Of a stretch of DNA of 64,000 nt, positions 1-14,078 are shown piece after piece (the stretch's first letter is position 1; the number at the start of each line of letters is the position of its first letter). Made by a program: the position numbers and the translations under genes. The DNA is from Opitutus sp. GAS368 (lineage in GTDB: Bacteria; Verrucomicrobiota; Verrucomicrobiia; Opitutales; Opitutaceae): contig NZ_LT629735.1 of the NCBI RefSeq assembly GCF_900104925.1, positions 2,264,291 through 2,328,290 on the forward strand, written 5' to 3'. A model generated the notes under the pieces. That model was given only the letters and a program-made list of their open reading frames with translations, did not search any database and was not told where the DNA came from.

Positions 1-133
1 GCATGAAGAAGAAACCGCGCGGGCGCGGGCGACGCCCACCTTGGACGACGGATGACAAACCGGCTATGGGGTGGTCACTCCACATCAAACCATGTGACTT
101 GGCGCGGAGGCGTCCGCACACTGGGTGCGACTC

Positions 134-841
134 ATGAAACACCTTGCTTCGGCGCCGCGCCGCTTTGGGAATAAAAAGCATCTCCTGCTGGTCGCGGGAT
201 GCGCGGTGTTCGGCGTCGCGTTGGTGCTGGTGGCGATGCCAACGGGAGTGGGGGCGGTGGTGAATGACGTGGTGCTGGGTTTGCGCGAAGCGGGCCCGGT
301 GGTCTTCTTCGTCGCGATGGCGCTGTTGCCGGCCGCGGGATTTCCGTTGCTCGCGTTCACGCTGACCGCCGGGCCGGTGTTTACGCCGGTGCTCGGTGCC
401 GGCTGGGTGATGGTGTGGTCGGTGGCCGCCGTGGTCGTCAATTTGCTGCTGACCTACTGGCTCGCGCGCCGCGCGCTGCGGCCGCTCGTGATCCGGCTGC
501 TGGCCTGGTGTGGATTCCACTTGCCGGAGGAAGCGCCGACCGGAGCGTGGCAGCTGACGCTGATGGTCCGCCTGACCCCCGGCCCCCCCTTCTGGGCGCA
601 GAGTTACGTGCTCGGCCTGCTGCGCGTGCCCTTGGGGCCGTATCTGGTCGTCTCCACGTTGGTCATGACGGGCTACATCGCGGCGCTCGTTTACGGCGGG
701 GCTGCGATCATGCAAGGCAACGGCCGGCTGGGCTTCGCGGCGGTTGTCGGCCTGGCGGTCCTCGTCGCCGCGCGACAGCTCTGGCGCAAGCACGCGGCGC
801 GGCGTGTCCCGGCCGCGCCCGTCGCCGTTCCCGTCGAGTAA
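134..841 (+). CDS. VTT/DedA-like (TVP38-type) membrane protein
   Basis: This is an integral inner-membrane protein of about 235 residues with several long hydrophobic segments. The segment VRLTPGPPFWAQSYVLGL fits the conserved Arg-Pro-Gly core of VTT/SNARE-associated (DedA/TVP38) proteins, a family tied to lipid scrambling and envelope homeostasis. The exact substrate cannot be told. I chose the ATG at 134; an in-frame GTG at 125 would add three residues. It lies 6 bp ahead of the chorismatase gene on the same strand, so the two may be co-transcribed. The family call is moderately sure, the function is not. Confidence 0.7.
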   Translation: MKHLASAPRRFGNKKHLLLVAGCAVFGVALVLVAMPTGVGAVVNDVVLGLREAGPVVFFVAMALLPAAGFPLLAFTLTAGPVFTPVLGAGWVMVWSVAAVVVNLLLTYWLARRALRPLVIRLLAWCGFHLPEEAPTGAWQLTLMVRLTPGPPFWAQSYVLGLLRVPLGPYLVVSTLVMTGYIAALVYGGAAIMQGNGRLGFAAVVGLAVLVAARQLWRKHAARRVPAAPVAVPVE

Positions 842-847
842 GCTGTC

Positions 848-1765
848 ATGACAAACCTCACCACCGGGTTCCCGTCATTGCAGATCGCCTTCGGCCCGCC
901 CGAGGAGGTCATTGCCGCCGGCGTGCCCGTTCTGGCCGGCGAAGCGGTGGAGAATCTCTTTGGGCCCGCCCAGTCCGCCGGGCGGCACGGGGCCTTTGGA
1001 CTTTTCCAAGCCGACGGCTGGCTCCTGGGGATCGCCTCGGTTCCTTTCACCTCCGGACTGGAGGCGGCCTCGCACCGGCTATATACCGATCTCTTCGGGG
1101 CGACGCAGGGCCGGCACCTGGCGCGCATCTGGAATTACGTCCCGGCCATCAACGAGGCCGGGCCCGGTGGGCTGGAGAACTACCGGCACTTTTGCCGGGG
1201 CCGCTCGCTGGCTTTCGAAGCGCACTTCGGCCGCGGTTTCAACGCGCGGTTGCCGTCCGCCTCCGCGGTCGGTTGCCACCCGGAGACCCTGACCGTGGCC
1301 TTCGCCGCGTGTCCCGACCAGCCGCGCCACGTGGAGAATCCGCTCCAGGTGGCGGCCTACGACTATCCCGGCGCCTACGGCCCGCGCGCGCCCAGTTTCG
1401 CCCGGGCGACCGTGGCGACGGGGCCGGCCGGCACCACGGTCTTCATTTCCGGCACCGCCGCGATCCGCGGCCATGCCACGATCGCCCCGGACAGCACGTT
1501 GCTCCAGCTCGAATGCACGCTGGAAAACCTGCAGGGCATCGCCACCGCCTGCGGACTCGGGCCCGGCCTGGCCGCCGGCCCCGCGGCCACCCGCCATTTC
1601 AAGGTTTATGTCCGCCACGCCGCGGACCAGCCGATGGTCGCGGCCATCCTGGCGGAGCGGCTTCTGGTCGACGGCGACCGCGTGTCCTACCTGCAGGCCG
1701 ACATCTGCCGCTCCGCGCTCCGCGTCGAGATCGAGGCCTCGCTCTTCGGGGTGCGGTCGCCTTGA
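848..1765 (+). CDS. chorismatase (FkbO/Hyg5/XanB2 family)
   Basis: The 305-residue protein has the features of FkbO/Hyg5-type chorismatases, which split chorismate into pyruvate and a cyclic product: dihydroxycyclohexadienoate, 3-hydroxybenzoate, or 3- plus 4-hydroxybenzoate in XanB2. Visible family-like segments are the central WNYVPAINE motif, FISGTAAIRGH and the C-terminal RHFKVYVRH, consistent with the RidA-like double fold. Subtype cannot be settled by eye. It faces the minus-strand polyketide-type cluster that starts about 0.9 kb downstream. In xanthomonads a homologue (xanB2) sits in the pigment cluster and makes the aryl starter, so a role in feeding the AMP-ligase at 2686-4005 is a reasonable inference. 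Confidence 0.8.
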   Translation: MTNLTTGFPSLQIAFGPPEEVIAAGVPVLAGEAVENLFGPAQSAGRHGAFGLFQADGWLLGIASVPFTSGLEAASHRLYTDLFGATQGRHLARIWNYVPAINEAGPGGLENYRHFCRGRSLAFEAHFGRGFNARLPSASAVGCHPETLTVAFAACPDQPRHVENPLQVAAYDYPGAYGPRAPSFARATVATGPAGTTVFISGTAAIRGHATIAPDSTLLQLECTLENLQGIATACGLGPGLAAGPAATRHFKVYVRHAADQPMVAAILAERLLVDGDRVSYLQADICRSALRVEIEASLFGVRSP

Positions 1766-1798
1766 TCCCATCCGCACGACTTCCCCATCCCTCCGCCC

Positions 1799-2401
1799 AT
1801 GAGTTCCAACAAGCCCCGTCCCTCCCGCGTCATGCGCCGCCTGTTGCGGCATTTCTGGCAGGGGGTCTTCGTCCTGGCGCCGATCGGCCTCACCCTCGCA
1901 ACCCTGGCCTGGCTGTTCGAAAAGGTGGACGGCATTCTTCGCGACTACGTGAGGTATCCCGGGGTCGGCTTCGTGCTGGTGCTGGGCACCGTGGTGCTGG
2001 TCGGCTGGTTCGCCTCGTATTTCTTCATGCGCCGGATGTTCAAGGTGGTGGATGGCTGGATCGAGCATACTCCCGGGGTGAGTTTCATCTACTCCACGCT
2101 GCGCGATTTCTTCGAGGCCTTCGTCGGCAACAAGCGCCGTTTCACCCATGCCGTACTGGTCAATGTGCACTCCGAGGAAGTCTGGATGCTCGGGTTTCTC
2201 ACCAGCGAGGATCTCGACAACTTCAAGCTCGGCGCCGGCTTTGTCTCCGTTTACGTCCCGCAGGCCTACCATGTCGCCGGGCAGCTCTACCTCGTCAAAC
2301 GCGAGCGGGTCCGTCCCATCGAGCATCTCGCTTCCGGCGATGTGATGAAATATGCGATGACGGGCGGCGTCGTGGACAGCGTGGACACGGGGTCCACCTG
2401 A
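1799..2401 (+). CDS. DUF502 family membrane protein
   Basis: The 200-residue protein has two membrane segments (about residues 20-43 and 57-78), followed by a soluble part containing TPGVSFIYSTLRDFFEAFVG. This is typical of DUF502 proteins, which are membrane proteins of unknown function found in bacteria and plants. The start ATG at 1799 follows a 33-bp gap after the chorismatase, so it may be the third gene of the same transcript. Nothing in the sequence links it directly to pigment synthesis. Confidence 0.75.
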   Translation: MSSNKPRPSRVMRRLLRHFWQGVFVLAPIGLTLATLAWLFEKVDGILRDYVRYPGVGFVLVLGTVVLVGWFASYFFMRRMFKVVDGWIEHTPGVSFIYSTLRDFFEAFVGNKRRFTHAVLVNVHSEEVWMLGFLTSEDLDNFKLGAGFVSVYVPQAYHVAGQLYLVKRERVRPIEHLASGDVMKYAMTGGVVDSVDTGST

Positions 2402-2446
2402 TGGGTCTGCGTCGGTGGCCGGGTCGGCCTGCCGATGACCAAGGAA

Positions 2447-2623
2447 TCAGGTTCGGACCGCGCTGCGACCGAGCAGGAAGTAGAGGATCGTGCCGAGGAA
2501 CGGCAGCAGGATGATGACAACGGCCCAGAGGAGCTTGTTCGGACTGTTGCCCTTGATGCAGTCGGCCAGCGCGACGATCCAGAAAATGAAGCAGAGCAGG
2601 CCGACGAGGTAGTTGAGATTCAT
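2447..2623 (-). CDS. small PLDc_N-type membrane protein
   Basis: A 58-residue protein starting MNLNYLVGLLCFIFWIVALA. It has two hydrophobic helices and the motif WAVVIILLPFLGTILYFLLGR, which matches the phospholipase D nuclease N-terminal (PLDc_N) two-helix domain. In larger proteins this domain anchors cardiolipin synthases (the gene at 14077-15504 carries a comparable N-terminus). On its own it is a common small orphan membrane protein of unknown role. A longer in-frame reading upstream is low-complexity shadow sequence, so I use the ATG at 2623. Confidence 0.7.
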   Translation of the reverse strand: MNLNYLVGLLCFIFWIVALADCIKGNSPNKLLWAVVIILLPFLGTILYFLLGRSAVRT

Positions 2624-2685
2624 GGCGTCAGGATACGGCTCCGGCCCGGCCCGGTCGATGGGGCCATCACCCACCTCCGGCCCGG

Positions 2686-4005
2686 TCAGCAGGCCATCGC
2701 CTGCAGGGCCTGCGTGTCGGTCTTGCCGCGGGCGGTCAGCGGCAACGCGGGCACCACGATCAGTTTCTTGGGAATCTTCCACGCGGCGGTGTCGGCGAGC
2801 AGCGCCGTGCGCAGCTCGACCGCGGTGCGTCCGGTAGCGATCACGGCGCCGAGCACGGGACTGTGGCCGGAGCTGACACCCACCCAGACCTCGCGCACCC
2901 CGGGCAGCAGGCGCAACCGGGCGGACACCTCGGTAAGACTCACCCGCCGGCCGGCAATCTTCACGGTCGGATCGCGGCGGCCGAGCAGGCTCACGCCGCC
3001 CGACGCATCCAGTTTCACACGATCGGGCATGATCCAGGTCCCGCGCCGGCGGTTGCCTTGGGTCAGCACCGCGGCGCTGCGCACCTGCAGGCGGTGGCCG
3101 GGCAGGGCGGTCAACCTTACGTCACGCAGGGCGCGGCCCACCTTGCCGGTGAAGGCGGCGGATCCGGTCCGGTCGTAGGTGATGCCGCCGGTCTCGCTCG
3201 AACCGTAGAAACTGTGCAGCCTGAGACCGAAGCGCGCGGCGAATACCTGCGCCACTTCGGATGGCAGCGGGGCCCCGGCGGATATGCCAAGACGCAGGCC
3301 GGGCAGCGCGAGCTCCGATGCCGCCAGCGCCCGCCACATGGCGGGGACGCCAGGAAACACCGTCGGCCGCCAGCGCGCGAAGTCCGCGGCGATGGCGTGG
3401 GGCAGGGGCGCACTCCCGCAAACCAGCGGCACGCCCTGCGCGAGCAGCGGAATGGTCAGGTTGCCGAGCCCGTAGGAATGGCCCAGCGGGATCAGGGCGT
3501 AATTCAGGTCGCGCGGCCGGATGCCCATCGTTGCCGTCACCTGCCGGCCGTCGGCGAGCAACTGCCCGGCGGTGAACACGAGCGCGCGGGGCCGGCCGGT
3601 GGTGCCGGAAGTGAGTTTGATGAGACAGACCGCGGGATCGCGGTAGCGCCGGGCGCCGGGCGGCAGCTCAAGGGCGGCGCCGTTCCACCAGGCGGCGCGG
3701 AGCGTGGTGGCGAGCCGGTGCTGCGCGGCGGGCGGCTCGGCGGCATCGAGCGGCACCACGACGGCCCCGGCCTTGAGCAGGGCGAGGAATATTTCCAGCC
3801 AGCCGATGCTGTTGGCCGCGGCGAAAACCACGGCGCGGCCCCGGAGTCGCGCGGGATCGGGTGCGTTCCGCCCGAGCCAGGCGGCGGCGCGCGCGTCGAG
3901 TTCGCCAAAGGTCACGCTGGCGCCGTTGTCCGCCTGCACCACCGCGCGTGCGGTGCCGTGGCGGCGCAGCGTCCTGGTCCAGGCCTGGAGGAGGGCGTGG
4001 CTCAT
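2686..4005 (-). CDS. acyl/aryl-AMP ligase of aryl-polyene type
   Basis: A 439-residue ANL-superfamily adenylating enzyme. The P-loop-like motif SGTTGRPR is at residues 133-140, YGSSETGG lies in the A5 region, and a C-terminal RGKTD carries the likely catalytic lysine. At about 440 residues it is shorter than fatty-acyl-CoA ligases, as is usual for AMP-ligases in aryl-polyene and xanthomonadin clusters, which load an aryl acid onto a carrier protein. Its ATG overlaps the TGA of the exporter gene by four bases (ATGA), so the two are translationally coupled. It is the last gene of the cluster. The substrate is inferred to be a hydroxybenzoate or related acid because of the chorismatase next door. 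Confidence 0.8.
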   Translation of the reverse strand: MSHALLQAWTRTLRRHGTARAVVQADNGASVTFGELDARAAAWLGRNAPDPARLRGRAVVFAAANSIGWLEIFLALLKAGAVVVPLDAAEPPAAQHRLATTLRAAWWNGAALELPPGARRYRDPAVCLIKLTSGTTGRPRALVFTAGQLLADGRQVTATMGIRPRDLNYALIPLGHSYGLGNLTIPLLAQGVPLVCGSAPLPHAIAADFARWRPTVFPGVPAMWRALAASELALPGLRLGISAGAPLPSEVAQVFAARFGLRLHSFYGSSETGGITYDRTGSAAFTGKVGRALRDVRLTALPGHRLQVRSAAVLTQGNRRRGTWIMPDRVKLDASGGVSLLGRRDPTVKIAGRRVSLTEVSARLRLLPGVREVWVGVSSGHSPVLGAVIATGRTAVELRTALLADTAAWKIPKKLIVVPALPLTARGKTDTQALQAMAC

Positions 4006-6335
4006 GGTTTGTCTCCCAGCGGGGCCAGGTGCTCGAATTCGATGGCCAGCAGCGCCACGCCGACCATCAGCGCGACGGTCAGGCCGAGGGCGCGCACCAC
4101 GGGGATGCCGCTCAGCGCCAGCACGCCGAACGAGGCGGCGGCCGTCAGGGCCGACAGCCGCACCGAGACCGGCGGCGGCTCGCGCCGGTAGGCCGAGGTG
4201 GCGGAGAAGATCGAGTAGTTGTGCGTCAGGCACACGCCGAGGAAGGCGCCGAGCAGGTGGAACAGGTTGAGCGGGTGCCCGAGCCAGCCGAAGAGGCCGA
4301 ACAGCCCGAGGCACGCGCCGCAGGGAATGGCGAAGATCCGCGCGCCATGGCGACAGCCGTAGGTGAGGAACACCCCGGCGCCGACCAGCGCCAGGCCCGT
4401 CAGGCTCAGCCACAGTGCGGACTGGCGGTAGCGGGCGAAGATTTGGTTGAGCGTCTGCAACTGGCCGGCGCTCACCGTGTTGGTGTCGGCCGGCGGCGCC
4501 GGCGCCGGCGCTGCGCGGACGAGGGTGACGAACCAGCTCAAGGGCCGGCCCGTGTGCAGCAGCAGCCCGGCCGGTCCGGAGAGATTGGTCTGCAGCGAAG
4601 CGAGTGCGGTCGCATAATCGGTCTCCTGCGCCGTGGCGACGTGATGGGCGTAGGCCGCGAAGAACGGGGCGAATTCCGCGTCGTTGAAGCCGGCCGCGAC
4701 CAGGGCGGCACGCAACCGGCCGGCAAATTCCGGATGCTCCCGTCCGAAGTGCACCGCGGCGGCATGCGCCTCCGCCGTCGGCACCACGGCGCCCAGCCCG
4801 ATGGCGGTGGCGTGGCCGCCGCCGGCCGAGTCCAGCCACGCCTCGAGTTTCGCCAGCGAGGCGCGGGCCGCGGCGACGCTGTTGCCATAGGTGAGATAGA
4901 CCGTCCGGTCGTCCTGCTCGCCGAACAGGGCGCTGATGCGCGCGTGCTCGCGCTGGAGTGCGGGCGAAGGGATTTCCAGTTCGCGGATGTCGTCCCTCCA
5001 CTGGAGCCTGGCCAGTCCGGGCAGCGCGATGAGCCACAGCGCGATGAGCAGCCGGCGCAGGTTGCGGCGCATCCCGGCCGGCAGGGCCGCGCCCCCGCGA
5101 AAGGGACGGGTTTCCAGGAACGGATTCCGGACGGTGGAGAAATAGAGCACGGCGGCCACCAGGGCACAGACCAGCCCGGCGCCGACAAAGACGCCGAGCT
5201 GGCGGATGAAGGGCAGCTCGGAGAACAGGAGCAGCGAAAACCCGGCCACCGTCGTGAGACAGCTTGCGAGCAGGGGCTTGGCCAGGCGGCGGACCTTGGC
5301 CCAGTAGTCCTCGCCGGGCGCGGCGGGCGGCTGCATAAAGAGGTAGAAGCCGTAGTCGATGGCCACGCCGGTCAGCAGCGAGCCGATCACAAAGACCATG
5401 ATGTGCAACCGGTCGAACGCCAGGGTCGCGGCCACCCAGGCCCCGAGCACGGACAGGCCGATCACCGGCAGAAGATGCAGGCCGCGGTGCACGCCGCGGA
5501 TGAACGTGAACGCCACGGCGAGCACGGCCGCGAGCGAAAGCGCGTTGAGCCAGGTGACCTCGTGCTCGATGCGGGTGCGGCTGGCGGCGGCGAAACAGTT
5601 CACGCCGGTATAGGCGGCCGAGAAACCGGGGAATTCCTTCCGCCCGGCGGCGGTGGCCCGGGTGATGGCGGCAAAAGCCGGAGCCTGTCCCGCCTCGCTG
5701 AGCGGCGAGGCCGAGAGCCGGGCCCAGACGAGAGTGGCGGTCGGCGCCGCGGGCTGGTCCAAGCCGGCCTTCAACCGTTCTGCCGCACCCGGCAAAAGCA
5801 GCAGCGGGTCGGCGGGAATCATGTCCGCGAAGGCGAGCGCCTCGGGTGTGGTCAGGAATCGTGCGAGGACTGCGGCGGTGTCGCGGGCGAGCCAGTCGGA
5901 AAATCCCGCCGGTTCGTCCCCGGTGCCGGCATAAGCCACGGTGCGTTCGCGCAGCCAGAGCGGAAACAACAGCGTGAAGCGCTGCGCGAACAGCTCGCGG
6001 CCCAGCGCTTCGCGCATGGCGGGGTCGCCCATGACCACGACCTGGTCGAAGGCCGGTTCGCGGTCCAGCGCCGCGACGAAGGCGGCGGCGGATCCGGCCG
6101 GGGCGGGCCGGCCGCCCGCGCCGGTCAGTTCGAACAGCATGGTCCGGGCTTCCGCCTGGCTGGCGAGCGAGCGGACCAGCGTCAGTTCCGGAGTGCGCTC
6201 GTCGGCGGGAATGAGGTCGAGGACGTCGCTGGAGATTTTTCGCGCATAATCGAGTCGCAGCAGCCACGCGCCGCCGAGCAGGGCGGCGCCGGCGAGAATG
6301 CTCCAGCCGAGAAGTTGGCGGCGCCGGAAGGTCAT
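4002..6335 (-). CDS. RND/MMPL-family exporter
   Basis: A 777-residue membrane protein with an N-terminal helix, a large periplasmic domain, and two blocks of about five to six helices (beginning near residues 250 and 620). The first block includes GSLLTGVAIDYGFYLFMQP and the second a comparable GVCLTHNYSIF segment. This is the architecture of MMPL-like RND exporters in aryl-polyene clusters, where they are thought to move the finished lipid-like pigment towards the outer membrane. It overlaps the ligase gene by 4 bp at its 3' end. A palindromic repeat separates it from the upstream glycosyltransferase-LolA gene. Confidence 0.85.
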   Translation of the reverse strand: MTFRRRQLLGWSILAGAALLGGAWLLRLDYARKISSDVLDLIPADERTPELTLVRSLASQAEARTMLFELTGAGGRPAPAGSAAAFVAALDREPAFDQVVVMGDPAMREALGRELFAQRFTLLFPLWLRERTVAYAGTGDEPAGFSDWLARDTAAVLARFLTTPEALAFADMIPADPLLLLPGAAERLKAGLDQPAAPTATLVWARLSASPLSEAGQAPAFAAITRATAAGRKEFPGFSAAYTGVNCFAAASRTRIEHEVTWLNALSLAAVLAVAFTFIRGVHRGLHLLPVIGLSVLGAWVAATLAFDRLHIMVFVIGSLLTGVAIDYGFYLFMQPPAAPGEDYWAKVRRLAKPLLASCLTTVAGFSLLLFSELPFIRQLGVFVGAGLVCALVAAVLYFSTVRNPFLETRPFRGGAALPAGMRRNLRRLLIALWLIALPGLARLQWRDDIRELEIPSPALQREHARISALFGEQDDRTVYLTYGNSVAAARASLAKLEAWLDSAGGGHATAIGLGAVVPTAEAHAAAVHFGREHPEFAGRLRAALVAAGFNDAEFAPFFAAYAHHVATAQETDYATALASLQTNLSGPAGLLLHTGRPLSWFVTLVRAAPAPAPPADTNTVSAGQLQTLNQIFARYRQSALWLSLTGLALVGAGVFLTYGCRHGARIFAIPCGACLGLFGLFGWLGHPLNLFHLLGAFLGVCLTHNYSIFSATSAYRREPPPVSVRLSALTAAASFGVLALSGIPVVRALGLTVALMVGVALLAIEFEHLAPLGDKP

Positions 6336-6344
6336 GCGGTGGAC

Positions 6345-6416
6345 TGTAGGGTCGCCGCTTGTCGGCGGACCGGGTAGTCGGCGCAGGATGGTCCGGCGAC
6401 AAGCGCCGACCCTGCA
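6345..6416. repeat. GTAGGGTCGCC-type palindromic repeat, copy 1
   Basis: Two 27-bp arms (6345-6371 and 6390-6416) are near-perfect reverse complements beginning TGTAGGGTCGCCGC. Similar copies lie at 26957-27012 and 29620-29692. It fills most of the 94-bp gap between the exporter and the glycosyltransferase-LolA gene, and RNA from it would form a strong hairpin. Confidence 0.9.
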
Positions 6417-6429
6417 TTGATGAGCCGCT

Positions 6430-7827
6430 TCATCGGAAATATTTTTTCACTTCCTCGGCGGTGAAGTCCGCCGGCGGGTGGGGCGGGGCGATCAGGATCT
6501 CGATGACCTGCCGGGCCGAACGGCGGAGCTCGATGCGGCGGACCGCGGCGGCTTCGCCGGCCACGGTGATCCGGCCGATGCTCTGGCGCAGCAGGTCGGT
6601 GCGCGGCGCGAGCGCGAGAATCCAGCTATCGCCGTCGCGCCGGCCGTAAAGTTCGAAGTCCGGTTCCAGCGCCGCGAACTCGAAGCGCAGGAGGTGTCGC
6701 AGCGCCCCGTTGGCCGCGGTCGCGCGCGGATCGGCGGGCGGCGATTTTTCGCCCGTGCGCGCCCGGATCAGCAGGCCCTGGGCGTCGAGAATGACGGTGC
6801 GGTCCTCGGGGGAAGTGTAGTGGAGGCTGAGACCGCGGGCGGCGGAGACGCGCGCTTCGCCCTGCAACTCGACGGGTTCCCGCTTGAAGGGGAATTGCCG
6901 GCGCTCGGTGAAGTCGGCCGCGGTGTCGGGTTGGTGCGCGAACAGGTCGGCCAGGTCGCGCCACGCCGGGGTGGCGGCGGCCAGCCGGTGCGCGGGAGTG
7001 ACCAGCTCATCGGGTTCGGCGGCAGCCCCGGGCATCGTCCACAGCAAAACGGCCAGCGTGGCGACGACGGTCCGCCACTGCCGCCGGTGGCGGAGCAGCG
7101 CCGGCCAGCGCCAGAACAGGAGTTCGACGAGCAGCCGGGTGTGCAGCCACACCAGCGTGGCGTTGTCGCGGACATAATGGAAATGCGACACGCCGCCCTC
7201 GGCGCGGGAGAAGTAACGGACCGGGGCCGCGAGGTTTTGCGGCGGCACGCCGGCCCAGGCCAGCCGGACGGCGGCCTCGGTGTCGAAGTCGTAGCGCCGG
7301 CCGCCGCGCCGCGAACCCAGCACGGCGAGCAGCGGCGCCAGCGGATAGACGCGGAAACCAAACAACGGATCGGCGACGCCGGCGCCCAGCAGTTCGAGCT
7401 GCACGAGGCCGACGCTGAGTTTCCGGCCATGCAACCGCTCGGCCGGGATGTTGGCGGGAAAGATCGGGCGGCCCAGCACGAGCGCGGCCGGGTTGACCTG
7501 CGAGGCCGCCATGAACTCGCCAATGCTGCCGGCCGGGTGCTGGCCGTCGGCATCCATCACCAGCGCGTGGGTGAAGCCGCGCGCCACAGCGGCCTGCGCG
7601 CCGGCGAGCACGGCCGCGCCCTTGCCGCTGTTGCGCGGCAGCACCAGCACGGTGAGCGCCGGGTCGAACCCGGCCTGCTCGCGCAGGAGCCGGTCGCTGC
7701 CGTCGGTGCTGCCGTCGACCACGACGAGGACATGCGGCCAGTGGCGCAGCACCTCGGCCACGACGGCGTGCAGCCGCGGCCCGGTGTTGTAGGTCGGCAG
7801 CAAAACGAGGTGGGTGGGGGGAGCCAT
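6430..7827 (-). CDS. fused GT2 glycosyltransferase / LolA-like protein
   Basis: A 465-residue, two-part protein. Residues 1-240 form a GT2 (dolichyl-phosphate-mannose-synthase-like) domain with LLPTYN, VVDGSTDGS (37-45) and MDADGQHP (91-98). Residues about 251-269 are hydrophobic and end in AAAEP like a signal peptide or single anchor. Residues 275-465 resemble the LolA-like lipoprotein-carrier protein found in aryl-polyene clusters (FTERRQFPFKREPVELQGEA). These two are normally separate genes. No ATG or GTG precedes the hydrophobic segment closely enough to suggest a hidden second start. The predicted layout is a cytoplasmic transferase tethered to a periplasmic carrier. It is separated by 2 bp from the upstream acyltransferase gene. 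Confidence 0.8.
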   Translation of the reverse strand: MAPPTHLVLLPTYNTGPRLHAVVAEVLRHWPHVLVVVDGSTDGSDRLLREQAGFDPALTVLVLPRNSGKGAAVLAGAQAAVARGFTHALVMDADGQHPAGSIGEFMAASQVNPAALVLGRPIFPANIPAERLHGRKLSVGLVQLELLGAGVADPLFGFRVYPLAPLLAVLGSRRGGRRYDFDTEAAVRLAWAGVPPQNLAAPVRYFSRAEGGVSHFHYVRDNATLVWLHTRLLVELLFWRWPALLRHRRQWRTVVATLAVLLWTMPGAAAEPDELVTPAHRLAAATPAWRDLADLFAHQPDTAADFTERRQFPFKREPVELQGEARVSAARGLSLHYTSPEDRTVILDAQGLLIRARTGEKSPPADPRATAANGALRHLLRFEFAALEPDFELYGRRDGDSWILALAPRTDLLRQSIGRITVAGEAAAVRRIELRRSARQVIEILIAPPHPPADFTAEEVKKYFR

Positions 7828-7829
7828 GG

Positions 7830-8558
7830 TCACAGGGCGGTGCGAAACCAGGTTTCGATCTCGGCCGTCAGTTCCGCGGGGCTGGCGGCCGTATCGGTGG
7901 GAATCAGGGGGCCCGCGGCCACCTCGACCCGGGCCGGGAAACGGGGCAGCCGCCACCACGTGCAGCCCTTGGTGAGGAGATCCGAATCGGTGGTGACACG
8001 CACGAGCTGGATCGGCACCCGGGCGCGCCGGGCAATCAGGACAAAGCCCGGCTTGAATGGCAGCGGCGCTTCCCCGGGGGGGGTGCGCGTGCCCTCCGGA
8101 AAGATCACCAGTTGCTGGCCGGCCGCCACCAGGGTCGCCGCCGTCCGCACGAGTTCATGGCCACCGTCACTGCCGAGGTAGCCGGCGCGCCGGGCGGCGG
8201 CCCCCAGCACGGGATTGCGGCGGATGGCGGGTTTGAAGATGCACACGGCCTCGGGCAGGCGCGCCAGCAGACAGGTGATGTCGGTCATGGCGGGATGGTT
8301 GGCGGCGAGCACCAGCCCGCCGTGCGGCCACGCACCGAACCCCCGGTAGCGCACCAGCACCAGCCGCGTCCGCGCGCACCACCAGTGGAAAAACACCAGG
8401 TGCCGGTGGATCAAACGTTGGAAGAAGCGTTCCGTGCGCCGGGTCGCCGGCAGCCCGCCGGCCAGCGCGCTGAGGAGGCACAGCTGCAGTCCGCCCGCGG
8501 CAAAGAGCAGCAGTGTGAAGTAATAGACCGGGTAGTAATAGGCGTTGCGGAGGAGCAT
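7830..8558 (-). CDS. PlsC-like lysophospholipid acyltransferase
   Basis: A 242-residue 1-acyl-glycerol-phosphate-acyltransferase-like enzyme with an N-terminal hydrophobic anchor (residues 9-35), the catalytic NHPAMTD motif (HX4D) and the substrate-binding FPEGTR motif. Such acyltransferases are standard members of aryl-polyene clusters and are thought to help build the lipid part to which the polyene is esterified. It sits between the LpxL-like gene (16 bp away) and the glycosyltransferase-LolA gene (2 bp away) in the same series. Confidence 0.85.
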   Translation of the reverse strand: MLLRNAYYYPVYYFTLLLFAAGGLQLCLLSALAGGLPATRRTERFFQRLIHRHLVFFHWWCARTRLVLVRYRGFGAWPHGGLVLAANHPAMTDITCLLARLPEAVCIFKPAIRRNPVLGAAARRAGYLGSDGGHELVRTAATLVAAGQQLVIFPEGTRTPPGEAPLPFKPGFVLIARRARVPIQLVRVTTDSDLLTKGCTWWRLPRFPARVEVAAGPLIPTDTAASPAELTAEIETWFRTAL

Positions 8559-8574
8559 CGGTAGAGCGCGGTTC

Positions 8575-9486
8575 CTAGCGGGATGCCGGCGCCGCCTCCG
8601 GGTTGAGCGGCAGGAAGTTGAACCAGAGGAACGGATGGGCGCGGACCAGGGTCTCCAGCTGGTCCAGCACGCCCTGGAAATGTTGGCGGGCCGCCTGCGT
8701 GTTCGCGGCGCGGCCCGCGGCCGGGTCCGGGATGAATACCGGCGAGGCGTGCACGTGCAGTTCGTCCTTTCCGGCCGCGGGGAGGGCGATGCAAAACGCC
8801 ACCGGCCGGTCGAACAGCATCGCCAGGAGGTAGATGTTAAAGGGGAAGCGGCGCCGGGTGCCCAGGAAATGGAAGGGCTCGGAGCGGGCGCTGAAGTCGA
8901 GCCGGTCGCACTTCAGCGCGAGGGATTCACCGGCCTCGAGGGCGGCCTTCAGCGCGAAGAGCATGTTGGCGGGGTCGTTGACCCAAAGGAAGGACACCTT
9001 GCCGGAAAACCTCCGGCCGAGCCGTTGGGTGTCGCCGGAGTTGCCCACCCGCATCCGGAGGATGGAAACGCGCCGGCCATGCTCGGCGAGCAGGTAACCG
9101 AGGAGATCGGAGCCGCCGAAATGAAAGGCGCCGAAGAGCGCCGGCCGGGGGGAATCCAGCAGCGCTTCGAACTCCACCTTGTTCCCGGGCGCCAGGACAC
9201 AAAGCACCGGGACCCCGCGGCCGGCGCGGAGATTGAGCAGGAGGGCCTCCGCGAAAGCGAAAAAATGCCGCCACCCTTCGCGGAGCGTCGCGGGCCGGCC
9301 GAGCACGACGGCGAGGTAGGCGCGCGAATGCGCGCGCTGCACCGGCAGGCAGGCGAGCGCCACCCACGTGCCGGCCATCAGCACCGGCCGGAAAACCCAG
9401 CGGGGCCACCAGCGCTCCGCCCACAGCAGAAAACCGTAGCCCCAGCTCGGGCCCGGATTGCGGGGAGGTTGAGCCGGCGGGTTCAT
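8575..9486 (-). CDS. LpxL/HtrB-like lipid acyltransferase
   Basis: A 303-residue protein of the LpxL/HtrB lauroyl-acyltransferase type, with an N-terminal membrane segment, GAFHFGGSDLLG (the expected HX4D-like region appears as HFGGSD) and the family-like C-terminal HPFLWFNFLPL. The ATG at 9486 overlaps the upstream gene's stop by four bases; a longer upstream reading would run into that gene. Enzymes of this type in aryl-polyene clusters are believed to acylate the glycolipid carrier. General function is fairly sure, substrate unknown. Confidence 0.75.
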   Translation of the reverse strand: MNPPAQPPRNPGPSWGYGFLLWAERWWPRWVFRPVLMAGTWVALACLPVQRAHSRAYLAVVLGRPATLREGWRHFFAFAEALLLNLRAGRGVPVLCVLAPGNKVEFEALLDSPRPALFGAFHFGGSDLLGYLLAEHGRRVSILRMRVGNSGDTQRLGRRFSGKVSFLWVNDPANMLFALKAALEAGESLALKCDRLDFSARSEPFHFLGTRRRFPFNIYLLAMLFDRPVAFCIALPAAGKDELHVHASPVFIPDPAAGRAANTQAARQHFQGVLDQLETLVRAHPFLWFNFLPLNPEAAPASR

Positions 9487-10139
9487 CGCCACTCGAGGTT
9501 CCAATCGCCGCCGCCGCCGGACCAGCGCAGCGGCGAGCGGGCGGCCAGGGTCGCCGCGAATTTTTCCAGGGTGGGGCACACGTCGTCGGCGGCCGGCCCG
9601 GGGGTGAAGGCGATGCAGCCCGCCGCGCCGTCCGCGGCGTGGGTCAGGATCGTCGCGAAGGCAAACGAGGTGGCCGAGGCGAAACCGTGCGCCCCCATCC
9701 AGGTGCCGCGCTCCTCGCCGCCGACCAGCGCCACGTGCGCGGCCGGTTCCAGCAGCGCCGTCAGCAGCGCCTGCTCCACGAGCCGCGGGCGCCCCGCGAG
9801 CGGCCAGAGCCGGGCCACGGGCTGGTGGCGGCCGATGAGCACCTGTTGCACGCTGCCGGGATGGATCGATGTCTGGAAGAGCAACGGGCTGGCGGCGGGA
9901 AAACTCCGCAGGAAATCCTCCAGCGCGCGCGTTTCGGCAAATGTCGTGGCCAGCACCACGGCGTCCTCCGGTCCGAGCGCGGTGCCTTCGAGCACGGAGC
10001 CGACCAGCAATCCGAGGTGCGTCATCCGCCGCAGGGCGGTGCGTGGAAACTTGTCCGCCAGCCGGGCGCGTGCGGCGGCCGCGGTTTCCTCCGCGGTGGG
10101 CAGCTCCACGAGCACCTGGTGGAGGAAACGCTCAATCAT
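9483..10139 (-). CDS. beta-ketoacyl-synthase-like chain-length-factor protein
   Basis: A 218-residue protein resembling the short ketosynthase-N-terminal-like protein (Ketoacyl-synt_2 type, ApeC-like) of aryl-polyene clusters. The segment LLFQTSIHPGSVQQ lies where a ketosynthase would have its active-site cysteine, and no cysteine is present, so it is presumably a non-catalytic partner such as a chain-length factor. It overlaps the preceding ketosynthase gene by 8 bp and the following LpxL-like gene by 4 bp, so the three are probably translated together. Confidence 0.65.
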   Translation of the reverse strand: MIERFLHQVLVELPTAEETAAAARARLADKFPRTALRRMTHLGLLVGSVLEGTALGPEDAVVLATTFAETRALEDFLRSFPAASPLLFQTSIHPGSVQQVLIGRHQPVARLWPLAGRPRLVEQALLTALLEPAAHVALVGGEERGTWMGAHGFASATSFAFATILTHAADGAAGCIAFTPGPAADDVCPTLEKFAATLAARSPLRWSGGGGDWNLEWR

Positions 10140-11238
10140 GGGTGAGGAGCATCGCGGCGTGGGCGCCGCCAAACGCGTTGCTGGTGAGGATGGCGCCGTC
10201 GAACCCCGCGCTGGCGAACGGCTCCAGCGCGACGTTGGCGGTGAAGCTTGGCGCCGCGCCGCCGACGGTGCCGGGGATGCGCCCGCCGCGCAGCGCCGCG
10301 AGGGCAAGGGCGAGCTCGACCAGGCCGCAACTTCCGAGCGTGTGGCCGAGGCTGCCCTTCCAGCCGGTGAGCGGGGCGGACGGAAAATGGCGGCCGAACG
10401 CCTCGGCCTCGAGCCGGCCGGCCTCGAGCGTGCCGGTGCCATGGCCCTTCACCCAGACCGACCGGCCCTGCGCGGCGGTGGCGATCGCCCCGGCGCAGGT
10501 GGCGAAGCCGGCCCCATCCGGCTGGTTGGCGGTGAAATGGAACATCTCGTTGTGCAGCGCGTGCGCGGCGAGGCGGAACGGCGCGGCGTCGCGCGTGAGC
10601 ACGGCAAAGGCGGCGCCGTCGCCGAGGCCGATCGAGCCCGTTTCCCGCCGCGCATAGGGCGCCGGGAAACCGCCGTTCAGGATCTTCAGGCTGTGGAAGC
10701 CGCCGGCGACAAACGGACTGACGAAATCGAAGGAGAAAACCAGCACCCGGTCGGCGAGTCCCGCGTGCAGCAGGCGCGCGGCGTGGGCGAGGCCCAGGTG
10801 GGCGGTGACGCAGGCATGCGAGAACACGTGGACGTGTTCGCCCCAGCCGAATTCCGTGCGGAGCAAGTCGACCGCGGCGAAGGGCGTGCCGTGGGCGAGG
10901 TGGCGCGGGTCGGCGTCGCGGCTGAACGCGTAGAGGCTGCCGACACCGAAGTTGCTGCTCGTGACGATGACCGGTGAGCGCGCCGAGCCCCAGGCGGCCG
11001 CGGGGATGCCGGCGGCCATCCGCCGCAGGCCGGGCAGCCAGCGGGGCGGCAGCGTCTCATCCATCGGTCCCGTCAACGCCAACGGCACCAGGTCGCCGCC
11101 GTCGCGCCCGAGCACGGGCGTGAGCTCGAGGGCGCACCGGCCGGCCAGCAGGGCGGTGGCCGTGGCGGCGGCGTCGCCGAACGGCGTGAGACAGTCGCAA
11201 GCCGCGAGACCGACGGGCAGCTGATCGGCGGGGGACAT
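10132..11238 (-). CDS. beta-ketoacyl-ACP synthase (aryl-polyene type)
   Basis: A 368-residue condensing enzyme with an apparently complete Cys-His-His triad: Cys143 in SHACVTAHLG, His266 in KGHGTGT and His299 in GSLGHTLGSCG. It is shorter than FabF, in line with the divergent ketosynthases of aryl-polyene clusters. It follows the small ACP gene by 9 bp and overlaps the chain-length-factor-like gene by 8 bp, so the two products may form a heterodimer. Confidence 0.85.
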   Translation of the reverse strand: MSPADQLPVGLAACDCLTPFGDAAATATALLAGRCALELTPVLGRDGGDLVPLALTGPMDETLPPRWLPGLRRMAAGIPAAAWGSARSPVIVTSSNFGVGSLYAFSRDADPRHLAHGTPFAAVDLLRTEFGWGEHVHVFSHACVTAHLGLAHAARLLHAGLADRVLVFSFDFVSPFVAGGFHSLKILNGGFPAPYARRETGSIGLGDGAAFAVLTRDAAPFRLAAHALHNEMFHFTANQPDGAGFATCAGAIATAAQGRSVWVKGHGTGTLEAGRLEAEAFGRHFPSAPLTGWKGSLGHTLGSCGLVELALALAALRGGRIPGTVGGAAPSFTANVALEPFASAGFDGAILTSNAFGGAHAAMLLTHD

Positions 11239-11247
11239 GGGGCGGAT

Positions 11248-11514
11248 TCAGGCGGCGGCCGCGTGCGCGCGGACATAGGTCGCGAGGGTGCCCACGGTGG
11301 CCAGCGCCCGGCGCGACTCCTCGCTGTTGCCGATCTTGACGCCGTATTCCTTCTCGATCGCGAGCACAAGCTCGAGGGCGTCGAGCGAGTCGAGGCCGAA
11401 CTGCGCCGAGCCGATGAGCGGCTCGTCATCGGGGATGTCCCCGGGGCCGACGCCGTCGAGCCTGAGCGAGGCGATGATCAGGGTCTTGAGGTGGAGGGTG
11501 AGGGAGTCGGTCAT
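11248..11514 (-). CDS. acyl carrier protein
   Basis: An 88-residue acidic carrier protein. The phosphopantetheine attachment serine is in FGLDSLDALELV and is followed by the usual EKEYGVKI helix. It starts at the ATG at 11514, 7 bp after the larger ketosynthase gene. It is one of two carriers in the cluster, matching the paired ACPs of aryl-polyene systems. Confidence 0.9.
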   Translation of the reverse strand: MTDSLTLHLKTLIIASLRLDGVGPGDIPDDEPLIGSAQFGLDSLDALELVLAIEKEYGVKIGNSEESRRALATVGTLATYVRAHAAAA

Positions 11515-11521
11515 GGGAAAG

Positions 11522-12787
11522 TCAGGCCGGGCGGCGGAGGAGGTGGCAGACATTGCTGCCGCCAAACCCGCTGCTGTTGTTGAGCACGAGGCCCGGCGCC
11601 TCGGCGAGGGTGGTGCGGGGCAGGTCGAGCCCGGCGCAGACGGGATCGGGATCCGTGAGATGCGCGGCCCCGGGAATGAAACCGCCCTCGATGGCGAGGG
11701 CGCAGAAGCCCGCTTCCATCACGCCGGCGAGGGACAGGCCGTGGCCGGTCAGCGCCTTGGTGCTGCTGACCCGCGGCCTGGCGCCCCCGGCGGTGAACAC
11801 CGCGTGCAGGGCGAGCGCCTCGGAGCGGTCGCCCGCGATGGTGGAGGTGGCATGGGCGTTGACGTAGCCGATGTCGGCGGCGTTCACGCGGGCGTCGGCG
11901 AGGGCGCGCTGCATGGCGCGGCGCAGACCCGCGCCCTCGGGATGCGAGACGGCCACGCTGTGACCATCGCCCGCCTGGCCCCAGCCGATGAGCTCGGCGT
12001 AGATGTGCGCGCCGCGACGGCGGGCCAGCGCGGCGTCCTCGACGATGAGGGCGACCGCGCCGCCGGTGCCGACAAAACCGTCCCGCGAGCGGTCAAAGGG
12101 GCGCGAGGCCGTGGCCGGGTCCGGATTGGAGGAAAGCGCGCGCAGGCTGGCGAACGAAACGATGCTCTCCGCCGTCAGGTCCTCCGCCCCGACGACCAGC
12201 ATCCGCTGCTGCCGGCCGAGGCGGATTTCGTCCATGGCGTGGCCGAGGGCGTGGCTCGACGAGGCGCAGGCGGAGACAAAGCCGCAGACCGCGCCGGTGA
12301 TCCGGTAATGGGCCGCGAGGTTGAAGTTCAGGGTGCCGGCGATGGACGAGACGATGCCCATCGGGTTGCCGCGCTCGCCGCGGGTCTCGTGCAGCTGGTT
12401 GAGGAAGCTGTGGAGCATGAACGGCGAGCCGGCGGAGGCGCAGAACAGGCCGGTCGTGCCGTCGCCCAGTTCGGCCGCGCCGAGCCCGGCGTCGGCGAGG
12501 GCCTGTTGCAGCGCGCAGACCGCATAGACGCCATGCGGGGCGAGCCCGCGAAGCAGCTCGCGATCAACGGCGAACTGCTCCGGCCAGCCCCAGTCGCGCC
12601 AGTTGGCGGTCGGAAAGGAGAAGCCCTTGACCGTGCCGGCGACCTTGACGGGCAGGGCGGGGTTGCCGAGGAACTCGACCGGTGCAAAACCGTGGCGCAG
12701 TTCGCACAGGCTGCGCTGCACGGCGAGCCGGTCCTGCCCGATGCTGGTGATGAAACCCAGCCCGGTGATGACGGGAAGCGGCGGCAT
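11522..12787 (-). CDS. beta-ketoacyl-ACP synthase II (FabF-like)
   Basis: A 421-residue KAS-II-type condensing enzyme with Cys174 in VSACASSSHALG, His312 in NAHATST and His349 in KALTGHGLSLAG, plus the C-terminal NNSSGFGGSN. All catalytic residues are present. It is probably the main chain-elongating ketosynthase of the pathway. The start at 12787 lies 10 bp after the long ACP gene. Confidence 0.9.
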   Translation of the reverse strand: MPPLPVITGLGFITSIGQDRLAVQRSLCELRHGFAPVEFLGNPALPVKVAGTVKGFSFPTANWRDWGWPEQFAVDRELLRGLAPHGVYAVCALQQALADAGLGAAELGDGTTGLFCASAGSPFMLHSFLNQLHETRGERGNPMGIVSSIAGTLNFNLAAHYRITGAVCGFVSACASSSHALGHAMDEIRLGRQQRMLVVGAEDLTAESIVSFASLRALSSNPDPATASRPFDRSRDGFVGTGGAVALIVEDAALARRRGAHIYAELIGWGQAGDGHSVAVSHPEGAGLRRAMQRALADARVNAADIGYVNAHATSTIAGDRSEALALHAVFTAGGARPRVSSTKALTGHGLSLAGVMEAGFCALAIEGGFIPGAAHLTDPDPVCAGLDLPRTTLAEAPGLVLNNSSGFGGSNVCHLLRRPA

Positions 12788-12797
12788 AAGGGCCGGC

Positions 12798-13184
12798 TCA
12801 GCGCGCCGGGAGGATCGAGACCTTGTCGTGGATGAAGCCGCGCAGGTCATCCAGCGTGCGCACCCGGATGATTTCCTCGTTGGTGATGGTGATGCCGAAC
12901 AGATCCTCGGTGAAAAACACCACCTCCGTGAGGGCGAGGGAGTCAAAGCCCAGGTCGTCGATCAGCCGGGTGCCGCCGGGCAGCTCCGCGAGCGGTCGCG
13001 CGGGAGTCTTGGGAATGAAGTCTTCCAGGATGGCAAGCAGGACGGGGTCCAGCGCCGCCGGGTCGCCGATAACCTGAAACCGGGCGAAGGCGGCCCGGGC
13101 CGCCGCCGGCAGGTGACGAATGCTTTCATACTGATAATTCGGGGCGACGGGGGAAACGCTGGCGGCGGTGGCGGATGAGTTCAT
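12798..13184 (-). CDS. acyl carrier protein with N-terminal extension
   Basis: A 128-residue protein whose residues about 45-128 form an ACP with the Ppant serine in LGFDSLALTEVVFF. The preceding ~45 residues are not part of a normal ACP and include ESIRHLPAAARAAFARF, possibly a docking helix. It is the first enzyme-pathway gene after the sigma factor. The ATG at 13184 is the only good start; a shorter start would leave an ordinary ACP. Confidence 0.85.
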   Translation of the reverse strand: MNSSATAASVSPVAPNYQYESIRHLPAAARAAFARFQVIGDPAALDPVLLAILEDFIPKTPARPLAELPGGTRLIDDLGFDSLALTEVVFFTEDLFGITITNEEIIRVRTLDDLRGFIHDKVSILPAR

Positions 13185-13263
13185 GGGTAATGCGGGTCAG
13201 GCTTTCACGGCGAGGGAGGGCGGAACCGGCCGGGCGCGACGTGGAGCCGGGGCGCCAAGAGGC

Positions 13264-14004
13264 TCACGCGCAGGAGACCTGCAGAAGTCCGGCGGACCGG
13301 ACGGGCTCGAAGCAGGTGAACGGCGTGTCGGTGGGGAAGGAGTCCGGGTAGGATTTGCCCACCAGCAGGCGCAGGCTGGTGCGCGCCCGGGCGATGCGGC
13401 TCTTGGCGGTGCCGACGCGGATGCCGAGGGTCCGGCTGATGTGGCCGTAGGTATGCTGCTGCACATTGCGCAGGGTGAGGATCTCGCGTTGGCCGGCGGG
13501 CAGCTGGTCCATGCAGCCGGTGACGATCGCGGCAAACTCGCTCGTCGCGGCCGCGTGCACCGGGCTGGGCGCGTCGCTGGCGACGAGGTCGGCAAAGCTG
13601 GCGTCGTTGCCCTCGCTGAAGGCCGCATCGAGCGGCAGGGTCGCATGGCGGCGGCGGCGGAAGTAATACCAGTAGCGGTTGCGGGAGAGATTGAGGGCGA
13701 TGCGGTAGAGCCAGGCGGCGAGGGAGGAATCGCCGCGGAACTTCGCGAGGCCGCGATGCGCGCGGATGAAGGTGTCCTGCGCGATTTCCTCGGCGTCGGC
13801 GCGGTTCCGCAAAAGCCCCAGCGCCGCCTGCAGCATCCGGGCGCGGTAGCGGGTGACGATCTCCACGAAGGCGGCCTCGTCGCCGGCGTTGAACCGCTGC
13901 ACCAGGGTGGCGTCATGCTGCGCCTCCTGGCGGGACAGCGCCGAGCGGGCGGCCCGATCGGTGGACGAAGGGACGAAGGCGGGGGAGTGATTCTGTGCAA
14001 CCAT
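13264..14004 (-). CDS. ECF-type RNA polymerase sigma-70 factor
   Basis: A 246-residue sigma factor with region 2 (VQRFNAGDEAAFVEIV, then RNRADAEEIAQDTFIRAHRG) and region 4 (LPAGQREILTLRNVQQHTYG followed by VGTAKSRIARAR). Regions 1.1 and 3 are absent, as in extracytoplasmic-function sigma factors. It has a ~30-residue N-terminal lead and a ~25-residue C-terminal tail. No anti-sigma gene is adjacent, which is unusual. It sits 79 bp upstream of the first ACP gene, so it may control or simply precede the pigment-type operon. Confidence 0.9.
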   Translation of the reverse strand: MVAQNHSPAFVPSSTDRAARSALSRQEAQHDATLVQRFNAGDEAAFVEIVTRYRARMLQAALGLLRNRADAEEIAQDTFIRAHRGLAKFRGDSSLAAWLYRIALNLSRNRYWYYFRRRRHATLPLDAAFSEGNDASFADLVASDAPSPVHAAATSEFAAIVTGCMDQLPAGQREILTLRNVQQHTYGHISRTLGIRVGTAKSRIARARTSLRLLVGKSYPDSFPTDTPFTCFEPVRSAGLLQVSCA

Positions 14005-14052
14005 GCCGCCCAGACTACCGGCTAAGAGGCGCGGACGTAATGGGGTGTTATG

Positions 14053-14078
14053 CTGACGGGCCCCGCCGGGGCGGGTTC
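14053..14078 (-). promoter_or_regulatory. candidate ECF-type promoter for the sigma gene
   Basis: Read on the minus strand, GAACCC (14078-14073) and CGTCAG (14058-14053) are separated by 14 bases. This resembles the GAAC...CGTC pattern of ECF-sigma promoters and lies about 50 bp upstream of the sigma gene. The -35 part overlaps the stop codon of the cardiolipin synthase gene. The spacer is itself a GC palindrome that could instead act as a terminator. Confidence 0.35.

Follow-up and report, generated by a model that had tools for sequence, protein, structure and literature searches.

How might a bacterium make an aryl-polyene-like lipid from a gene cluster that holds the condensing, loading, attachment and export parts of such a pathway, with no ketoreductase or dehydratase among them? 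The question is raised by a stretch of 64,000 nucleotides (‘the window’; positions 2264291-2328290) of the Opitutus sp. GAS368 genome, a single contig of 4.15 Mb, where an earlier note had described an aryl-polyene (APE)/xanthomonadin-like cluster close to a chorismatase. We consider it likely that the locus encodes an APE-like pathway of Opitutales type for an envelope lipid, with hydroxybenzoate as the primer and with the reduction and dehydration of the chain borrowed in trans. The gene set is conserved in relatives and linked there to the chorismatase, and a dedicated ApeQ, ApeI or ApeP was found neither locally nor in the genome.

The cluster is a minus-strand operon, running from 13184 to 2686 in the order ACP1-KS1-ACP2-KS2-KS3-LpxL-like-PlsC-like-GT2/LolA-MMPL-ligase (ACP, acyl carrier protein; KS, ketosynthase; GT2, family 2 glycosyltransferase), in which every reading frame is intact and the intergenic spacing from ACP1 to the ligase ranges from -14 to +94 bp. 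Both ACPs carry the DSL motif. The chorismatase is convergent with the operon, 0.9 kb from the end of the ligase gene (Table 1), and the G+C content of 2686-14004 is 71.3%, as against 66.6% for the whole window. The two ketosynthases, cysteine-less KS-like partner, two ACPs, AMP-ligase, two acyltransferases, glycosyltransferase, LolA-like domain and MMPL exporter listed in the earlier note were all found as it had placed them, as was its FkbO-type chorismatase, for which the coordinates and the PF21168 and Protein Data Bank (PDB) matches agree. Its statement that reductase and dehydratase are locally absent also holds: neither was found in the operon by a Pfam scan of the 16 proteins encoded at 125-15504, or when the first 20 kb were searched with profiles. 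The observation of gene content is confirmed, and the APE/xanthomonadin-like reading placed upon it is supported by the comparisons that follow.

Judged by their sequences, the condensing, loading, attachment and export parts are of the APE/xanthomonadin type, in an Opitutales-type variant of which the window belongs to a dehydratase-less branch. In common with the APE systems of E. coli CFT073, Xenorhabdus doucetiae and Acinetobacter baumannii, the window has an ApeO-ApeC type pair, a FabB-like KS, two ACPs, an ApeH-type ligase, ApeD and ApeJ acyl/glycosyltransferases, LolA and an MMPL exporter. Set against the E. coli system, however, it has a GT2-LolA fusion, an ApeJ split in two, a different gene order, a chorismatase in place of UbiC and a KS1/ACP1 lineage of its own; and in BLASTP comparisons with the CFT073 APE proteins no counterpart of ApeA, B, G, I, K, N, P or Q was found among the window proteins. 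Within KS2, Cys143, His266 and His299 are invariant in 13/13 aligned sequences, that of E. coli ApeO included, and the protein matches, below that model's cut-off, NCBIfam PRK09185, a model that we take to cover ApeO. In KS1 the cysteine of the ACASS motif and the two histidine motifs are all in place. KS3 has the active-site motif without its cysteine, gave no significant match in sequence searches of Pfam (one insignificant), NCBIfam or PDB, and resembles ApeC only weakly, by BLASTP at E 0.23 and by profile comparison at the level given in Table 1. A canonical APE cluster would thus be recognised here by its KS/chain length factor pair (the KS3 part at profile level only), ligase, ACPs, transferases, LolA and MMPL, but not by a dedicated ApeQ or by ApeI and ApeP, and because the ketoreductase and dehydratases are wanting we do not file it as one.

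The same gene order recurs across 80 related loci, these being the best 80 of 100 relatives from one scan of a genome contig collection with the KS2 alignment. KS3 was found in 78 of them, ACP2 in 76, the LpxL-like protein in 73, GT2 in 66, LolA in 65, the PlsC-like acyltransferase (AT) in 63, MMPL in 59, the ligase in 51, ACP1 in 50, and KS1 and the chorismatase in 48 each; many of the contigs are cut off, such that 51/80 reach the ligase. One locus, L092, holds the same set; between it and the window, the operon genes share 68-88% identity. Some loci share contigs or genomes (L092 and G004:C17 are the same contig, whilst L133 and L137 are two contigs of one genome), so the counts overlap and are not independent events; the titles of two, L100 (‘Pedosphaera’) and L164 (‘PVC group’), point outside Opitutales. 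Among 57 relatives, a strong KS2 is present in 20, of which 16 belong to the window's family and four to others (G039, G044, G055 and G056). An even sample of the phylum, scored for at most five candidates per genome, gave KS2 (E 1e-60) in 21 of 387 genomes, with the same order in 21/21.

The chorismatase travels with this gene set. It was matched in 18 of the 20 relatives with KS2 and in one of the 37 without (Fisher 1.1e-11, kinship not corrected for), where weak matches in G025 (chorismatase and KS2) and G041 (KS2) were counted as negative. The sole KS2-negative genome with a chorismatase, G009, has a partial match of 161 residues; G011 and G022 have KS2 and no chorismatase match, and in G011 the exporter match runs only as far as residue 512, and the 19.9 kb examined there gave no ligase match. 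At the stricter of two limits, 46 of the 51 ligase-bearing loci have the chorismatase, 41 of them in convergent orientation with a median gap of 73 bp and two outliers at about 10 kb; those without are L111, L114, L153, L163 and L167, two of which, L111 and L153, count as positive at the looser limit. The conservation of the gene set around the chorismatase in relatives, on which the earlier note had let its reading depend, is borne out by these three lines of evidence (gene order, linkage and co-occurrence), and the cluster with its chorismatase is a lineage trait.

The chorismatase aligns with the structures 5ag3, 5a3k and 4bps, the first two of which we take to be Hyg5. Its residues Gly202, Cys287 and Glu294 match Hyg5-type marks and are invariant in 32/32 Opitutales-type sequences, whereas Ala140 stands where the Hyg5 subfamily has its first Gly (mapped through Hyg5 numbering). 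In Nat-hyg5, the marks of the subfamily that forms 3-hydroxybenzoate (3-HBA) are given as Gly-164, Gly-231 and Cys-318, together with the catalytic Glu, in the relevant passage of PMC7170507; in the Azoarcus paper it is stated that the reaction of a chorismatase cannot be accurately predicted by sequence alignment alone (PMC3949708). 3-HBA is therefore no more than the favoured candidate for the product. None of the 57 relatives gave a UbiC-type chorismate lyase, whereas the E. coli positive control was detected; of the two types of hydroxybenzoate-forming enzyme tested, the chorismatase is therefore the only one present. The ligase resembles ApeH and, below cut-offs, benzoate and 3-hydroxybenzoate ligases among others. 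A fusion of ApeI to the ligase, as in Acinetobacter, was considered and rejected, since the only domains in this protein that reach or come close to their cut-offs are AMP-binding ones. In a collection of plasmids, chorismatase matches occur in nine records from other phyla, at 28-40% identity, and KS2 matches in eight distant records; in the one plasmid record inspected, Caballeronia pNK83, the neighbours of the chorismatase are not APE genes.

With regard to the missing enzymes, none of the 80 loci has a short-chain dehydrogenase/reductase (SDR) within the span bounded by the outermost cluster genes that were detected there, and an SDR lies outside the cluster span in 5/80. The dehydratases are distributed differently. 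Profile searches gave an ApeI-like dehydratase in 9/80 loci and an ApeP-like one in 7/80, which at visible junctions corresponds to 8/63 and 7/44, respectively; junction scoring left 14/80 loci unscored. In a KS2 tree of 89 rows, built by a quick method, the 60 rows scored as dehydratase-less (the window's included) form one clade together with ten unscored rows, with a support of 93 in the SH-like approximate likelihood ratio test (SH-aLRT), whilst 12 dehydratase-bearing rows fall outside it; no dehydratase was seen at any scored junction in the 60 rows. There are two exceptions to this pattern: L160 is scored dehydratase-less yet lies outside the clade, and L168 is ApeI-like by profile but scored dehydratase-less, the domain falling outside the junction limits. 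The distribution fits a single loss of dehydratases in the window's clade.

The four relatives from other families that bear the cluster all have an ApeI-like and an ApeP-like dehydratase within it. In G044, G055 and G039 the matches are clear (ApeI-like, 77-125 bits; ApeP-like, 138-180 bits), and in G056 weaker (44.7 and 67 bits), the ApeI-like one there being no stronger than FabZ matches and counted owing to its place between AT and GT2. By comparison, among the 16 genomes of the window's family that carry the cluster, nothing ApeI- or ApeP-like scored above the FabZ level of about 47 bits; G033, placed in this family by genome grouping, has the cluster and the chorismatase, with no ApeI at its AT-GT2 junction and no ApeP-like match above the level of FabZ. 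The retention of both enzymes in other families points to a dehydrated chain as the ancestral product. As a dehydratase needs a reduced substrate, and these outgroup clusters have no ketoreductase, a reductase from outside the cluster would already have served there; in the window's clade dehydration must, on the same reasoning, either come from outside as well or stop.

The earlier note had left it that the reductive enzymes are elsewhere or that the product is not a normal polyene, and the genome-wide searches bear on this choice. Dedicated orthologues of ApeQ, ApeI and ApeP were not found in the window's genome, where nothing ApeI- or ApeP-like exceeds the FabZ match of 43-44 bits; what the genome does have is FabG, FabZ and an operon combining an ACP-dehydratase, a KS and an SDR. 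FabA/FabZ-family matches number three: FabZ itself, one in a ladderane-like cluster and one fused to an ACP. Of 23 SDR frames, drawn from 24 genes matched (the FabI-like one at 3822578 was left out, and that at 2853672 is unaligned at the motif), FabG comes nearest to ApeQ, at 42% identity and with Phe at ApeQ Leu185. When ten genomes were searched with an ApeQ alignment (E 1e-40), each gave one match of 200-224 bits, the grade of FabG, and only G025 gave another, at 504 bits. G025 served as a positive control: tblastn finds there a canonical APE cluster with both dehydratases and an ApeQ at 66% identity. This cluster (L183, G025:C1:2522000-2541900) belongs to a member, by genome grouping, of the window's own family, and differs from the window's in its E. 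coli-type order from ApeC to ApeR, with no ApeK match and with proteins 37-67% identical to the E. coli type; it is a separate lineage, probably acquired horizontally.

The operon in question lies at 2.625-2.629 Mb of the genome (L008, 7749-12135) and encodes an ACP fused to a FabA/FabZ-type dehydratase, a KS, an SDR and a GT28-type glycosyltransferase. Its ACP, dehydratase, KS and SDR were found in 12/12 near-relative loci without the cluster, including those of genomes of 2.8-3.0 Mb, and the glycosyltransferase in 11/12; in 14 further relatives the KS was found in 14, the dehydratase in ten and the SDR in four. KS1 and ACP1 are paralogues of this operon's KS and ACP, with KS1 56% identical to the KS at 2625817, the genome's other ketosynthase; this kinship is suggestive, as a hint that the two systems may cooperate. 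In a KS tree, also built by a quick method, the KS1 clade is split from the genome's FabF by a fully supported branch, and the conserved operon's KS forms the group next to it; support is 100 for the conserved-operon clade and 83 for the one that unites KS1 sequences from the cluster with lone ones, and L078 (G056) falls outside both. Closest to KS1 and KS2 in the trees are rows bearing titles such as Candidatus Didemnitutus, Opitutus and Lacunisphaera, which places the window's genome with Opitutaceae. Placement of the ketosynthases in primary fatty-acid clades, the outcome named by the earlier note as fatal to its reading, was not what emerged: KS2 matches ApeO and the KS1 clade stands apart from FabF, although the nearest paralogue of KS1 is a conserved, housekeeping-looking KS.

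Two ideas about KS1 were rejected. That KS1/ACP1 were gained as the dehydratases were lost does not agree with a Pelagicoccus cluster (L128) that has both KS1 and dehydratases, and KS1 is not specific to the cluster, as lone ACP1-KS1 pairs are found elsewhere. Such pairs were seen outside the cluster in other genomes at L084, L085, L086 and L081; at L085 the pair is followed by a protein that, from the look of its sequence, is thioester-reductase-like. A further orphan ketosynthase (L007, 9257-10456; genome ~2.5593-2.5605 Mb) has no visible biosynthetic partners, and its neighbours look like histidine kinases.

Other known systems share parts of this arrangement. Xanthomonadin and arcuflavin loci (Xanthomonas; Azoarcus arc) are alike in their FkbO/Hyg5/XanB2-family chorismatase, ligase, glycosyltransferase, LolA, acyltransferase and exporter. 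The arc loci are described, in the passage of PMC3949708 that deals with them, as having the reductase arcH, the dehydratases arcI/arcS, a halogenase and a methyltransferase, none of which was found among the 16 window proteins scanned; the xanthomonadin-type chorismatase and its linkage are present at family level, and the cluster-borne reductase and dehydratase are not. The Opitutales-type clusters with dehydratases (Pelagicoccus, Cerasicoccus and others) share the run ACP2-KS2-KS3-LpxL-AT-GT2-LolA-MMPL-ligase, with a chorismatase in most, and differ from the window in an ApeI-like protein between AT and GT2 and an ApeP-like one between MMPL and ligase. No family of the flexirubin/dialkylresorcinol DarA/DarB type scored above cut-off among the 16 proteins, to which that search was limited. 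Within Opitutales, published papers report two ‘arylpolyene’ cluster calls in members associated with Cephalotes ants (PMC8277422) and one antiSMASH-type ‘arylpolyene’ call in Congregicoccus parvus ASA1, a strain placed in Alterococcaceae, with menaquinone-7 as its main quinone and with whitish-yellow colonies that turn slightly yellow (PMC12193912). In the literature searched, chiefly open-access, we found no account of ketoreductase-less APE-type clusters, or of a Verrucomicrobiota chorismatase tied to them.

Synthesis in the window's clade may proceed as follows, where we infer each of the enzymatic steps. The chorismatase would split chorismate to give hydroxybenzoate (3-HBA, perhaps also 4-hydroxybenzoate), which the ligase would then put onto ACP2; the KS2-KS3 pair, of ApeO-ApeC type, would extend it with malonyl units, assisted by KS1-ACP1, and at each round the chain would be reduced and dehydrated by enzymes supplied in trans. 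For reduction the likeliest supplier would be FabG; for dehydration it would be either FabZ or the ACP-fused dehydratase of the 2.625-2.629 Mb operon. Attachment of the chain to a lipid would fall to the glycosyl- and acyltransferases, and transport of this lipid to the outer membrane to the MMPL/LolA-type proteins.

Several points weigh against this scheme. Replacement of ApeQ by purified Acinetobacter FabG in vitro yielded hardly any APE, according to the passage of PMC8041823 that treats it, and the only FabG-grade enzyme in the window's genome has Phe instead of the Leu at ApeQ position 185. An SDR lies 1-2.4 kb past the last cluster gene found in L118, L120 and L166, and for L118 and L120 the absence of a reductase within the span counts for little, because few cluster genes were found and the span is nearly KS2 alone. 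Twelve genomes that do not have the cluster carry the ACP-dehydratase operon, whose main job must therefore be another one, and beyond close relatives an SDR was recognised beside its KS in only 4/14 loci. The similarity of KS3 to ApeC is weak, and the yellow of colonies such as those of ASA1 could be due to carotenoid.

How, then, do other explanations compare? It seems unlikely that the window's clade, after losing both dehydratases, makes a non-polyene aryl lipid, in the form of an aryl polyketide that is unreduced or processed only in part, such as an aryl beta-keto, pyrone or phenol lipid: whilst the dehydratase-free junctions of the clade's 60 rows, the ketoreductase-free span of all 80 loci and the failure of FabG to substitute for ApeQ in Acinetobacter would all accord with such a product, the genes for export and acylation have been retained along with the KS2-KS3 pair, the 16 proteins of 125-15504 include no cyclase/aromatase family, and the dehydratase-bearing clusters are also without a ketoreductase, such that a reductase acting in trans seems normal for the system. 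Somewhat less doubtful, but still put forward only tentatively, is the broader possibility that the reductive core is shared with the ACP-dehydratase/KS/reductase operon by way of the KS1-ACP1 paralogy, or that the product represents a new class of non-polyene aryl lipid.

The linkage data bear most directly on whether there is an aryl starter at all. A variant long-chain lipid pathway without one, beside which the chorismatase would be a neighbour with some other role (secretion of 3-HBA, for instance), could draw on the closeness of KS1/ACP1 to a conserved and probably primary lipid operon, and on the position of the chorismatase on the opposite strand; we nevertheless think it improbable, given how regularly the chorismatase accompanies the ligase, convergent and at close range, how it follows KS2 between genomes, and the likeness of the ligase to ApeH and, below cut-offs, to benzoate and 3-hydroxybenzoate ligases. 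That the locus is decaying and has lost its function is more improbable still, for although its gene count is below that of the outgroup clusters, the frames are intact, the spacing is tight and identity to L092, which has the same set, is 68-88%. An APE-like pathway primed by hydroxybenzoate, with borrowed reduction and dehydration, is thus the reading that we prefer for the features collected in Table 1.

Table 1. Predicted features of the cluster and its immediate surroundings, in window coordinates, with the matches that bear on each.
Feature	Position	Strand	Matches and remarks
VTT-domain membrane protein adjoining the chorismatase; only possibly part of the system	125..841	+	PF09335 4.7e-08
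FkbO/Hyg5-family chorismatase, 305 aa, predicted hydroxybenzoate maker	848..1765	+	PF21168 1.3e-22; PDB 5ag3 2.5e-39; 4bps FkbO 4.4e-36
AMP-forming acyl ligase, ApeH-like	2686..4005	-	PF00501 2.7e-38; CFT073 ApeH BLASTP 2.5e-12
MMPL/RND exporter, ApeM-like	4002..6335	-	PF03176 6.1e-09; ApeM 3.3e-17
GT2 glycosyltransferase fused to LolA-like (LolA_3) domain, corresponding to ApeJ N-part + ApeL	6430..7830	-	PF00535 2.2e-17; PF19574 1.3e-05; ApeJ 40% over 239 aa, 5e-46; ApeL 1.5e-04
PlsC-type acyltransferase, ApeD-like	7830..8558	-	PF01553 2.1e-15; ApeD 8.3e-23
Lipid acyltransferase (LpxL-like), like C-terminal part of ApeJ	8575..9489	-	no Pfam match; ApeJ residues 260-545, 8.4e-11
KS3, cysteine-less ketosynthase-like partner, ApeC (chain length factor)-like	9483..10142	-	hhalign vs ApeC probability 67.7, E 4.9e-5
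KS2 ketosynthase, ApeO-like	10132..11238	-	PF02801 5.8e-10; ApeO 2.6e-19; Cys143/His266/His299
ACP2, ApeE-like	11248..11520	-	PF00550 6.3e-07; ApeE 46%, 2.0e-20
KS1 ketosynthase, FabB/ApeR-like	11522..12811	-	PF00109/PF02801; ApeR 31%, 1.8e-46
ACP1 with N-terminal extension	12798..13184	-	PF00550 3.4e-05; 36% to ACP half of the genome's ACP-dehydratase fusion, 6e-19
Sigma-70-type factor, possible regulator	13264..14004	-	PF04542, PF08281; near cluster in 3/80 loci

Some neighbouring genes deserve mention. The sigma-70-type factor gene lies 79 bp upstream of the operon, and the VTT protein is matched in 19/80 related loci, in varying positions. Between the chorismatase and the ligase sit a DUF502 gene (1799-2401), 85% identical in L101/L104 and there also beside a chorismatase, and a short PLDc_N protein (2447-2782). 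Elsewhere in the genome, a 4HBT-type thioesterase with 26% identity to ApeK (L008, 5970-6416) is found near the ACP-dehydratase operon, on the opposite strand. A separate run (L009, 1534-9555; genome ~3.8205-3.8286 Mb) encodes a KS, an ACP, two amine-oxidase/desaturase-like proteins, a FabZ-like protein, an SDR, a KASIII-like protein and an alpha/beta-hydrolase; we take it to resemble the clusters called ladderane or ole.

Finally, a conserved lineage in which the condensing, lipid-attachment and export parts are kept, and in which no dedicated reductase and in one clade no dehydratase either is seen, offers a direct test of whether chains of this kind can be made with borrowed fatty-acid enzymes. 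The coupling of an FkbO/Hyg5-type chorismatase to an aryl-lipid cluster is now extended to Verrucomicrobiota without UbiC, and software calls of ‘arylpolyene’ in Opitutales should not be taken to mean the E. coli product.

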